A stretch of DNA of 64,000 nucleotides from Bryobacteraceae bacterium (GTDB lineage: Bacteria; Acidobacteriota; Terriglobia; Bryobacterales; Bryobacteraceae), in the NCBI GenBank assembly GCA_026002875.1, contig BPGE01000001.1, positions 1,178,001 through 1,242,000 on the forward strand. Reading direction: 5' to 3'. Under the pieces are notes generated by a model, which was not told where the DNA came from, did not search any database, and saw nothing but the letters and a program-made list of their open reading frames with translations. Shown piece after piece: positions 56,587 to 60,381 of the stretch; the stretch's first letter is position 1, and the number at the start of each line of letters is the position of its first letter. The translations under genes and the position numbers were made by a program.

Positions 56587-57468
56587 ATGCGCATCGGCCT
56601 CCACTGCTCCACCTCCGGCGCCCTCGTCAACGCCGCCCGCCGCGCCCTCGAGGTCGGAGCCAACTGCTTCCAGATCTTCTCCTCCAGCCCCCGCATGTGG
56701 CGCGCCTCCATGCCGCCGCCGGAGCAGACCGCTGAACTCCGCCGCTTCCGCGCCGACCACGATCTCGCCCCGCTCGTCATCCACGACAGCTACCTCATCA
56801 ACCTCGCCGCCCCGAACGACGAAATCCGCGCCAAAAGCATCCACGCCATGCGCGGCGAACTCGAGCGCGCCTTCGCCATCGGCGCAGAATACCTCGTCAT
56901 CCACCCCGGCAGCGCCCGCCACGACCCCGTCGAAGCAGGCATCCAGCGCATCGTCGCCTCCCTCGCCGAAGCCTCCCGCGGACTCCGCCCGCCCGATGGC
57001 TTCATGCTCCTGCTCGAAAACACCGCCGGCGCAGGCGCCACCATCGGGCGCACCCTCGAAGAACTCCGCGAACTCCGCACGCGCCTCGCCCCCGTTCTGC
57101 CGTTCCCCGTCGGCTACTGCCTCGACACCTGCCACCTGTTCGTCTCCGGCTACAACGTCGCCACGCCCGATGGCCTCGAAGACACCGTCCGCCAGGCGCG
57201 CCAGATCCTCGGGCTCGACCACGTCCCCGTCATTCACACCAACGACAGCCTCGGCGCCTTCGGCTCCCGCCTCGACCGTCATGCGAACATAGGAGAAGGG
57301 CAGATCGGTCTGGACGGTTTCCGCCGGATCCTCAACCACCCCGAGCTGCGCCGCAAAGCCTTCGTGCTGGAGACGCCCGTCGATCAGCCGGGCGACGATC
57401 AGCGCAACGTCGAACAACTGAAAGCCCTATGCCGGAAATCCCGTACCGTCACGAAGAAATCGAGCTGA
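56587..57468 (+). CDS. nfo: Endonuclease IV (AP endonuclease)
   Basis: ATG 56587 begins [19 protein letters not shown] and the metal ligands are spread through [64 protein letters not shown]. It cleaves DNA at abasic sites. The 3' end overlaps leuS by 40 bases. A TACACT -10-like element lies shortly upstream in the 181-bp gap to the divergent lpxC; nothing else is seen in that gap. Confidence 0.93.
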
Positions 57469-59861
57469 AATGGTGCGAGCGCTGGAACGCCGACCCCGAT
57501 CTCTACAGGGCCGCTGACGACGGCTCCAGGCCCCGCTATTACGTCCTCGAGATGTTCCCCTACCCGAGCGGACGCCTCCACATGGGCCACGTGCGCAACT
57601 ACTCCATCGGCGACACGCTCGCCCGCTACCAGTGGATGCGCGGCTACGACGTCATGCACCCCATCGGCTGGGACGCCTTCGGCCTGCCCGCCGAGAACGC
57701 CGCCATCAAGCATGGCCGCCACCCCGCCGACTGGACCCACTCCAACGTCTCTTACATGAAAAAGCAGCTCCAGCGGCTCGGCTTCGCCTACGACTGGAGC
57801 CGCGAGGTCAACACCTGCCTGCCCGAATACTACCGCTGGAACCAGTGGATGTTCCTCCGCATGTTCGAGCGCGGCCTCGCCTACCGCAAGAGCTCCCTCG
57901 TCAACTGGTGCCCCGAGTGCCAGACCGTGCTCGCCAACGAACAGGTCGTCGACGGCTGCTGCTGGCGCCACGAGACCACGAAAGTCGAAATGCGCGAGCT
58001 CGACCAATGGTTCTTGCGCATCACCGCTTACGCCGATCAGTTGCTGGAAGACATGAAGCAGATCGAGGCCGGCTGGCCGCCCCAGGTGCTCACCATGCAG
58101 CGCAACTGGATCGGTCGCAGCGAAGGCGCGGAGATTGATTTCCGCCTCAAAGGCTCCGGGCAGCCCATCCGCATCTTCACCACCCGCCTCGACACCATCT
58201 ACGGCGCAACCTGCGTCATCCTCTCCCCCGAGCACCCTCTCGCCAAAGAGCTCTGCACCGGCGAACTCGCCGCCCGCCGCAAGGAAATGATCGACGAGCA
58301 GGCCCGCAAATCGCCCGAGGACCTCGAAAAGGAAGGCTTTTTTACCGGCCATTTTGCCGTCAATCCTTACAGCGGCGCTGAAATCCCCGTCTGGGTCGGG
58401 AACTTCGTCCTCTGGGGCTATGGCACCGGCGCCATCATGGCTGTGCCCGCCCACGACGAGCGCGACTTCGAGTTCTGCCGCAAGTACGGCATCCCCATCG
58501 TGCCCGTCATCCGTCCCGTCGATGGCGTTCTCGACACGGATCCGCAGCAGGCGTTTACCGGCGACGGCATCATGGAAAACTCCGGCGAGTGGTCCGGTCT
58601 TTCGAGCGCCGAAGGCCGCCGCCGCATGGCGGAAAAGGCCGAAAAAGAAGGCTTTGGCTGCCCCGCCATCACCTATCGCCTGAAGGACTGGGGCATCTCG
58701 CGCCAGCGCTATTGGGGCACCCCCATCCCAATTATTCACTGCAAAGCCTGCGGCGCCGTCCCCGTCCCCGACGATCAGCTCCCCGTCGTGCTGCCGGAGA
58801 ACGTCGAGTTCACCGGCCGCGGCCGCTCTCCACTCGCGCAGCTGAAGAGCTTCCTCGAAACCACCTGTCCCAAATGCGGCGGTCCCGCCGAGCGCGAGAC
58901 CGACACGATGGACACCTTCGTCGACTCCTCGTGGTACTTCTTCCGCTACATCGATCCCCGCAACGACCGCATGCCCTTCGATCCGCACAAGGTCAAGCCG
59001 TGGTTCCCGGTCGACCAGTACATCGGCGGCGTCACCCACGCCATCCTTCATCTGCTGTATTCACGTTTCTGGTGCAAAGTGTTGCGCGATATCGGACTTG
59101 TCGAGATCGACGAGCCGTTCCGCAACCTCTTCACCCAGGGCATGGTGCAGCTGCACGGGCAGACGATGTCGAAGTCCAAAGGCAACATCGTCGATCCCGA
59201 CGACATGGTTGCCAAGTACGGCGCCGACACCTGCCGCCTCTTCACCCTCTTCGCCGCCCCGCCCGAAAAAAACATGGACTGGAACGAGTCCGGCGTCGAA
59301 GGGCAGTACCGCTTCCTCAGCCGCCTGTTCCGTTGGGTCACCCGCAACGCCGACGCCACGGGCGGCGCGGGTGAAACCGATGCTCGTGCGCTGCGCAAGC
59401 TCCATCAGACCATCCGCAAGATTACGCAGGACTTCGACAATCGCTGGCACTTCAATACATCGATCGCAGCGCTCATGGAGCTGATGAACGAGCTGCACGT
59501 CTGCGAGCCCGGCATGTCCGCGGCCGTCCTGCGCGAGTGCGCCGAAAAAGTCACTCTGATGCTCGCGCCCTTCGCGCCCTTCGCCGCCCAGGAGCTGTGG
59601 CAGATCCTCGGCCATGACGGACCCGTCTTCCGCCACCCCTGGCCTGCCTTCGATGAAAACCTCGCCCGCGAAGAAGAACTCGAGATCCCGGTTCAGGTCA
59701 ACGGCAAGCTCCGCACCCGCATCACCGTCCCACACGGCACCCCGCAGGAAGAGCAGCAGCGGCTCGCCCTCGCCGACGAGCGTGTCCGCGCCCACACCGA
59801 TGGCAAGACGATCGTCAAGGTCATCCATACCGGCAGGCTGATCAACATCGTCGTCAAGTGA
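57429..59861 (+). CDS. leuS: Leucyl-tRNA synthetase
   Basis: The 810-aa protein begins [18 protein letters not shown], and has the HIGH motif [14 protein letters not shown], the editing domain ([10 protein letters not shown]), zinc-type CPECQTVL and CPKCGGP, and TMSKSKGN. It charges leucine and carries the usual CP1 editing domain. It starts inside nfo. Confidence 0.97.
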
Positions 59862-60340
59862 CCGCCACTGCGCGGTCCCTGCCGTCCCCGGCACGGTTCC
59901 CCCTCGGCCTTACCTCCGGGTTTCCCCTCGGCCTTGGCCTTCAGATTTCCCCTCGGCCTTGGCCTTCAGATTTCCCCTCGGCCTTGGCCGAGGGCTGCAT
60001 CCCACCCGTGCCGCCCGCGGCCCTCCCCAGCGGGTTTCCCATCGCCCTTGGGCGGCGGCTGCATCCCACCCTTGCCGCCCGCCGCCCTCCCTGCCGGGTT
60101 TCCCCTCGGCCTTGGCCGAGGGCTGCATCCCAACCGTGTTTCCCTCGCCCTCCCCAGCGGGTTTCCCGCCGCCCTTGGGCGGCGGCTGCATCCCACCCTT
60201 GCCGCCCGCCGCCCTCCCTGCCGGGTTTCCCCTCGGCCTTGGCCGAGGGCTGCATCCCAACCGTGTTTCCCTCGCCCTCCCCAGCGGGTTTCCCATCGCG
60301 CTTGCGCGATGGCTGCATCCCAACTGTGCCCCCGTCCCCG
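59862..60340. repeat. Non-coding tandem hairpin repeat array
   Basis: After leuS there are about eight units. Five complete or near-complete ones begin with GGGTTTCCC at 60032, 60096, 60159, 60223 and 60286, of 63 or 64 bp; earlier copies (59895-60031) are shorter or degenerate. Each carries a hairpin with a TT loop, then GGCTGCATCCCA. Stem arms differ but stay paired: CCCTCGGCC/GGCCGAGGG, CCGCCGCCC/GGGCGGCGG, CCATCGCGC/GCGCGATGG. Types alternate, giving a two-unit period of 127 bp. The unit lengths are not multiples of 3 together, so it is not coding. No gene is seen in the rest of this stretch. Confidence 0.75.
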
Positions 60341-60345
60341 GAATG

Positions 60346-60381
60346 AAAAAAACGGCCCGCCGCAACGCGGCAGGCCGTTTT
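60346..60381. terminator. Bidirectional terminator
   Basis: A hairpin with outer 9-bp arms AAAACGGCC/GGCCGTTTT (60349-60357, 60373-60381) and inner 5-bp arms GCCGC/GCGGC (60359-60363, 60367-60371). The A7 run before it and the T4 after it give T-tracts on both strands. It ends the leuS side and the small gene transcribed toward it. Confidence 0.8.

Follow-up and report, generated by a model that had tools for sequence, protein, structure and literature searches.

A tandem hairpin array downstream of leuS in a Bryobacteraceae genome is a likely REP-like mobile element with a candidate class-3-type transposase

The systems closest to the repeats described here are the short palindromic elements associated with TnpA_Y1 (HUH) transposases. 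The class 3 enzymes are characterized by the motifs HVH, W[TA], and YV[VI][AENY]EQ, and their genes lie among several atypical hairpins whose foot is CnGA; Solibacter usitatus has three such genes and about 600 hairpin copies (PMC6006769). For the E. coli REP enzyme, the residues in contact with the GTAG foot and with the hairpin have been described (PMC6006769). The GTAG REPs and their RAYT enzymes have short hairpins with 6-9-bp stems, many TY loops and alternative complementary stem residues by sub-family, large clusters of tandem units that include flanking DNA, and a transposase gene flanked by copies, whereas the REPIN arrays of P. fluorescens SBW25 are regular tandem REP arrays with compensatory hairpin changes in which the proposed replicative unit is a symmetrical REP doublet (PMC3733652, PMC3116915).

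The DNA analyzed here, referred to as the window, is a stretch of 64,000 nucleotides (1178001-1242000) of a Bryobacteraceae genome, the source genome, which is a single contig of 4,863,736 bases. A preliminary description of the window had reported tandem hairpin repeats after leuS with units of 63/64 bp and a 127-bp higher-order repeat, and both periods were recovered by Tandem Repeats Finder and a repeat search. The unit, hereafter the A element, is 34 bp long and consists of TTTCCC, a 7-bp arm, a TT loop, a second 7-bp arm and the 12-mer GGCTGCATCCCA, giving a stem of 9 bp when the adjoining CC/GG is counted. Six are present in the window between 59971 and 60322, in the following arrangement.

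57429-59861, + strand: leuS (leucyl-tRNA synthetase), upstream of the array; an 810-aa ORF with a coding-model score of 238, its name taken from the preliminary description
59897-59970, + strand: three left half-units (TTCCC/TTTCCC-CTCGGCC-TT...) at 24-25-bp spacing (Tandem Repeats Finder and repeat search)
59971-60004, + strand: element 1, CTCGGCC-TT-GGCCGAG, 7/7 paired (repeat search and sequence reading)
60035-60068, + strand: element 2, a hybrid, ATCGCCC-TT-GGGCGGC, with 5/7 Watson-Crick pairs (sequence reading)
60099-60132, + strand: element 3, stem CTCGGCC-TT-GGCCGAG (sequence reading)
60162-60195, + strand: element 4, stem GCCGCCC-TT-GGGCGGC (sequence reading)
60226-60259, + strand: element 5, stem CTCGGCC-TT-GGCCGAG (sequence reading)
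60289-60322, + strand: element 6, stem ATCGCGC-TT-GCGCGAT (sequence reading)
60020-60273, + strand: 127-bp higher-order repeat in two copies, 60020-60146 and 60147-60273 (Tandem Repeats Finder and repeat search)
60349-60381, strand unassigned: separate hairpin 3' of the array, AAAACGGCCCGCCGC / GCGGCAGGCCGTTTT (inverted-repeat search)

The left half-units correspond to a 25-bp-period array found by Tandem Repeats Finder at 59900-59989, and the bases preceding unit 1 are AGA, not GGG. The array is beyond chance: none of 100 shuffles of the window reached six 12-mer matches with one mismatch allowed (the largest number was five), and the mean count of the two-part element pattern in shuffles was 0.00. 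Overlapping ORFs cross the array on both strands, yet the coding model calls none inside it, and a coding role was rejected. The separate hairpin at 60349-60381 is a putative terminator, although the consensus terminator scan did not report it; visual inspection showed a comparable hairpin in congener G003, whose spacer has no array.

In the whole 4.86-Mb genome there are 442 exact copies of GGCTGCATCCCA (197 + 245) and none of the reversed pattern, so that the search proposed in the preliminary description, whose reading was to be given up if no further copies existed and the array proved to be an assembly artefact, found copies in abundance. From the loci fetched, which represent selected regions and not the whole genome, 442 loose matches (a number that coincides by chance with that of the exact 12-mers) were narrowed to 429 with no more than two flank mismatches and then to the 424 of these with at least 5/7 pairs, and these 424 A elements lie in 56 clusters. 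Perfect stems were present in 380/442 loose matches and in 379/424 filtered elements, all in four types (CTCGCGC, 249; CTCGGCC, 90; GCCGCCC, 24; ATCGCGC, 16), with two or more perfect types mixed in 26 of the 44 clusters that have at least three elements. The loop is AA instead of TT in two of the 424, a form that looks like an inverted tip. Spacing among the loose matches is chiefly 61-64 bp, with 39-40, 50, 87, 101, 147 bp and other values also occurring. Members of a cluster nearly always share one orientation (52/56 clusters of loose matches; 58/58 when filtered elements are grouped per locus), while the clusters themselves, some 56, are dispersed in both orientations. As many as 382 of the 424 elements are outside called coding segments, and 41 of the remaining 42 are in weak calls within arrays (scores 22.7-34.1) that we take to be spurious, the last overlapping a strong call (L058).

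The preliminary description had offered a structured RNA as an alternative to a mobile element, and these data bear on whether the array is an RNA or 3'-end element (3'-end protection, termination, or RNase sites) whose pairing is kept by selection at the RNA level. The covarying stem described below would suit such a role, as would the observations that, of the 54 clusters for which an upstream gene was called, 35 have it codirectional and that convergent pairs outnumber divergent ones (16 vs. 6, hand tally). This orientation bias is weak, though, and is also expected from the purging of promoter insertions. A scan for terminators and promoters at the window array identified neither a terminator-like tail nor a promoter, an Rfam scan of the window at the gathering score gave no matches, and no A element was seen after leuS in the four congeners (G001-G004), in which leuS DNA is 82-85% identical over the ~860 bp compared. 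We found no support for the RNA alternative and consider it very unlikely as the origin of the array; an RNA role could, nevertheless, be a later use of the repeats.

It had also been claimed that at least three stem types occur in the window with both arms changed together. CTCGGCC, GCCGCCC, and ATCGCGC are indeed each present there as perfectly paired stems. As to the second part of the claim, covariation is real across the family, where, in 50 rows chosen out of the 279 distinct 48-mers among the 424 elements, two-sided changes were found at 4/9 stem pairs and the two-sided cells over the 12 pairs tested numbered 63, compared to 23.5 (sd 3.2) when shuffled and 0-2 with the pairing slid. Neither the number of pairs with two-sided change (4) nor that of further pair types (7) exceeded the shuffles, as expected from there being few stem types common to many copies. 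Further paired stems occur in congener G004, whose 15 matches to the frame include 13 that pair at 7/7 positions, some of them with stems outside the four types of the source genome (e.g., ATCGCCC/GGGCGAT and CCCGGCT/AGCCGGG). One case of a switched stem is that of units 2608251 and 2608314, which are 63 bp apart and have different paired stems with no differences in 88 flank bases; there are 25 pairs of this kind at no more than 8% flank difference, from five cluster combinations, 20 of them in one cluster. As a strict rule, the joint change of both arms fails. In unit 2 of the window array the arms do not pair fully, and the only differences between the two 127-bp copies are at two bases (60041-60042), both in the left arm that distinguishes element 2 from element 4, so that the change between them was one-armed. 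Similarly, among 524 pairs with near-identical flanks, one-armed differences were more numerous than two-armed ones (117 vs. 60). In such pairs the loop changed at 0.168 per site, the flanks at 0.042, and the stem, counting one-armed differences, at ~0.016. From these rates and counts it follows that stems change less than flanks and often, though not always, in pairs.

A more speculative reading of the stems, which we regard as unlikely, is that of a hairpin system with a constant frame and a variable tip, in which the outer frame stays fixed and the inner paired tip is swapped as a small cassette. Inverted tips occur, with TT/AA loops in A elements and TGT/ACA loops in the G004 copies of a second repeat family, the B repeats (G004:C57:7196-7303), and in the B repeats, as in the A elements, tips vary yet stay paired inside their own frame. 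In such an exchange, a class-3-type HUH enzyme or hairpin-templated repair could cut at the tip and re-close the hairpin with another one. If this were true, the arrays would be sets of interchangeable hairpins.

A search of the source genome with the PF01797 profile identified two Y1 transposase-type genes above the cut-off, and using the smaller of these, gene A (G000:C1:2167718-2168164), as the query identified two further homologues, gene B (2182253) and gene C (800893). Gene A scores 28.1 bits against Pfam Y1_Tnp (cut-off 23), and its matches to NCBIfam models are below cut-off (REP_Tyr_transpos, 19 bits vs. 80). It has the HVH motif and YVVEKQ, one residue off the published class-3 Y motif, and in our protein alignment (disregarding rows L073 and L075, which are in the wrong frame or strand) it has PT at column 152, where B has WT and C has WK, its WA being at another conserved W. 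Gene B has all of the class-3 motifs (HVH, WT, YVIEEQ), and gene C has HAH, WK, and YVADRQ. The identity between genes A and B is 32% (47/149). The larger PF01797 match, a RAYT-like gene at 3427295 (339-aa frame), was rejected as a partner: its 5-kb locus holds no A element, the single match to the 12-mer there having two mismatches and lacking the hairpin frame.

Gene A is flanked on both sides by A elements, including a 67-bp direct repeat at 98.5%. Genes B and C are likewise flanked on both sides, each by its own, different repeat family. In the gene B region (L131 1311-2290) the repeat is AACGGAGCCGCGCGGGAG..tip..CGACCAAGCGGTT, and in the gene C region (L132 1080-2430, reverse strand) it is AGAGCCGCGAACGAAGG..GAGAGTGAGCGGTCCC; of five exact copies of the C pattern in the source genome, four are around gene C. 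The frame beside both is CnGAGCCGC...GCGGT, whereas the A frame is TTTCCC...GGCTGCATCCCA. From 24 genomes, 30 loci of gene A homologues were fetched, and a repeat common to both sides was found at 17 of the 23 tested (seven incomplete loci were left out), compared to 0/60 random window positions and 4/40 positions in relatives' loci that had not been chosen for Y1 genes. All four positive relative controls are in L108, the G003 locus matching the post-array region, which holds some repeat of its own. The CnGAGCCGC motif was present on at least one side at 16 of the 23 loci and on both sides at 12, but as at least one side was also positive at 20/60 control positions, we set the motif aside as too weak a test of class 3 by itself.

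We think it reasonably likely that the array after leuS arose by local amplification of a REP-like hairpin, a non-autonomous mobile DNA dispersed through the genome and tied to a class-3-related TnpA_Y1 (HUH) enzyme. The main alternative is an ordinary minisatellite in which a GC-rich palindromic unit is multiplied by slippage or recombination and spread by ectopic conversion between loci, with no dedicated transposase and with gene A as a passenger; against it stands the recurrent pairing, at B, C, and the homologue loci, of a Y1 gene with a repeat family. Among 36 positions drawn at random from the array loci of the source genome, 27 had repeats on either side, and the flanking of gene A could thus stem simply from its lying inside an array. 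Mobile genes may insert into neutral arrays, an example being the IS1182-family element at the gene A locus, and the departures of gene A from the class-3 motifs also agree with a passenger. These imperfect motifs, the 32% identity to B, and a frame unlike those of the B and C repeats all count against gene A as the mobilizer.

The A element is distributed narrowly. Among 60 relatives, G004 had six exact 12-mers and the others 0-4, close to the counts of the control pattern (0-3), and the frame with any stem was present 364 times in the source genome, 15 times in G004, and 0-5 times in each of the other 99 genomes. Matches to the covariance model, which numbered at least 157 and at least 46 in two counts of the source genome, were found in four alone of 150 family genomes (the source genome, G003, G004, and, with one copy, G033), with 15 in G004, two in G003, and none in G001 or G002. 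Tandem repeats are difficult to assemble and most of the relatives are drafts, which raises the possibility that an assembly artefact multiplied the repeat units; we regard this as extremely unlikely, as the source genome is in one contig and its units differ, as judged by the number of distinct 48-mers. The converse explanation, that counts in relatives are low only because drafts collapsed, was rejected for congener G002, whose genome is a single contig and lacks any copy of the 12-mer, a result that argues against the artefact too.

The copies in G004 (a draft, 98% complete) call for some caution. Three of its 13 paired copies are in an array on contig 28 and a fourth is elsewhere on that contig, which is 98.8% identical to the source genome over 997 bp (L064 1339-2335 vs. 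L061 1-997), in comparison to about 85% for leuS. The contig may, from its sequence, represent MAG contamination or a recent transfer, and given this excess identity we set the four-unit array of G004 aside as independent evidence. The pattern GGGTTTCCC-N16-GGCTGCATCCCA was found in a named genome collection (from which the source genome was possibly excluded) in a sole stretch on CAKZUE010000028.1 of an uncultured Bryobacteraceae MAG, whose length and match positions equal those of G004 contig 28. The strict B pattern has 58 copies in the source genome, ten in G004, and none in G001-G003. Within this set of five genomes, homologues of gene A were found in the source genome and G004 only, and the G004 homologue is of the B type (73% identical to gene B, 128/175). 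No gene A-type homologue was found in the G004 draft despite its A-like hairpins, a further point that would suit a minisatellite.

Comparison to G004 also indicates how the arrays grew. At one orthologous site (L065/L152), where the flanks are 92 and 81% identical, a single element in G004 corresponds to 24 in the source genome, spaced at 40-43 bp with one gap of 60; at a second (L145/L126) the numbers are one and ten. These single-copy sites are from a draft assembly in which tandem arrays can collapse. L152 (G000:C1:3586800-3588300) has its ~1-kb array of 24 between two coding segments, on the same strand by eye. The best spacer match was within the element's own cluster for 298.2 of 408 elements (tie-weighted), compared to 10.9 expected, and since spacers are most alike within their own array, the arrays must have expanded locally, spacers included, presumably by slippage or unequal recombination. 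The same likeness of spacers within arrays is to be expected of a minisatellite, as are the half-units and the variety of periods (25, 40, 43, 63, 87, 101, 127, and 147 bp), which suit slippage. The ~56 dispersed clusters, in both orientations and with one constant frame, nevertheless require some means of dispersal, and taking both sides together we judge the minisatellite to be a serious but rather improbable alternative.

Returning to the REP-like element, the reading of the preliminary description that has gained support, its hundreds of copies, their mostly extragenic position, the lineage-specific expansion, and the Y1 (HUH) transposase-type gene between copies can be combined in a tentative scheme. 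The mobilizer, by its anatomy, would be the small HUH/Y1 transposase akin to TnpA_Y1 class 3 that gene A encodes, and we infer from the flanking elements that this enzyme mobilizes the A element. It would recognize the constant frame and a paired stem on single-stranded DNA and tolerate many paired stem sequences. If a foot and a shape are what is recognized, the stem sequence is free provided that it is paired, as would suit an unvarying frame in which one paired stem can replace another. The element would be dispersed by the enzyme and then multiplied locally by slippage or unequal recombination, with stems altered by short-tract conversion between copies and by selection for pairing. In the genomes compared, excision or insertion events were not observed, and at empty sites the spacers are unconserved and gave no resolution of insertion boundaries.

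How closely does this arrangement resemble the known systems? As in class 3, the gene is a small one of the HUH/Y1 type whose product has HVH and a Y....Q-type motif, several high-copy hairpins lie on its flanks, the host belongs to the Acidobacteria, and the source genome has three such genes, as does Solibacter (PMC6006769). The A frame, TTTCCC...GGCTGCATCCCA, is not the CnGAGCCGC...GCGGT frame found beside genes B and C, and the foot, the tetranucleotide before the TTTCCC position, is mostly CGGG (276/424), the CnGA-type CGGA accounting for 107/424. Furthermore, A elements form long head-to-tail arrays, and gene A is without the W of the WT/WK column and has the slightly divergent Y motif. 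The GTAG REPs share with the A elements their short hairpins, loops, sub-family stems, tandem clusters with flanking DNA, and flanked transposase gene, but neither GTAG nor GTGG is among the 15 commonest tetranucleotides listed for the feet of the 424 elements, gene A falls below the REP_Tyr_transpos cut-off, and the RAYT-like gene of the source genome has no A element nearby. The SBW25 REPINs are alike in array regularity and compensatory changes and differ in that their doublets are symmetrical, whereas here single hairpins lie in the same orientation. We found no published description of the A element in the open-licence PMC literature. Very small mobile DNAs that rely on a single-strand transposase are a known kind, of which the A element probably forms a new branch.

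The A element offers a candidate partner repeat for a sparsely studied class-3-type HUH transposase. Hundreds of copies in the source genome, almost none in congeners, and an orthologous site with one copy vs. 24 make REP-like spread, multiplication, and stem pairing testable within one genus. The arrays also caution against taking every set of tandem hairpins with covarying arms for an RNA gene.

Some minor observations concern other mobile sequences in these genomes. The leuS 3' region of G004 (L103) and L034 contain copies of a GGGGACAGGAACACAATTCCCC-type sequence that fits GGGGWSAS, a motif of the inverted repeats reported next to certain tyrosine transposase genes (PMC3733652). The IS1182-family element at the gene A locus (NCBIfam, 370.9 bits; L071 325-2048, G000:C1:2165824-2167547) interrupts an A hairpin at its loop and is bordered by GCTT at either end. 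REPs have reportedly been treated in one paper as IS targets. The terminal motif of the IS1182-family element, GGGTCTGTGAAAAAA, has 12 occurrences with one mismatch allowed, and three pairs of these span 156-157 bp and look like miniature derivatives; TIR pairs are also present in L044 and L041.
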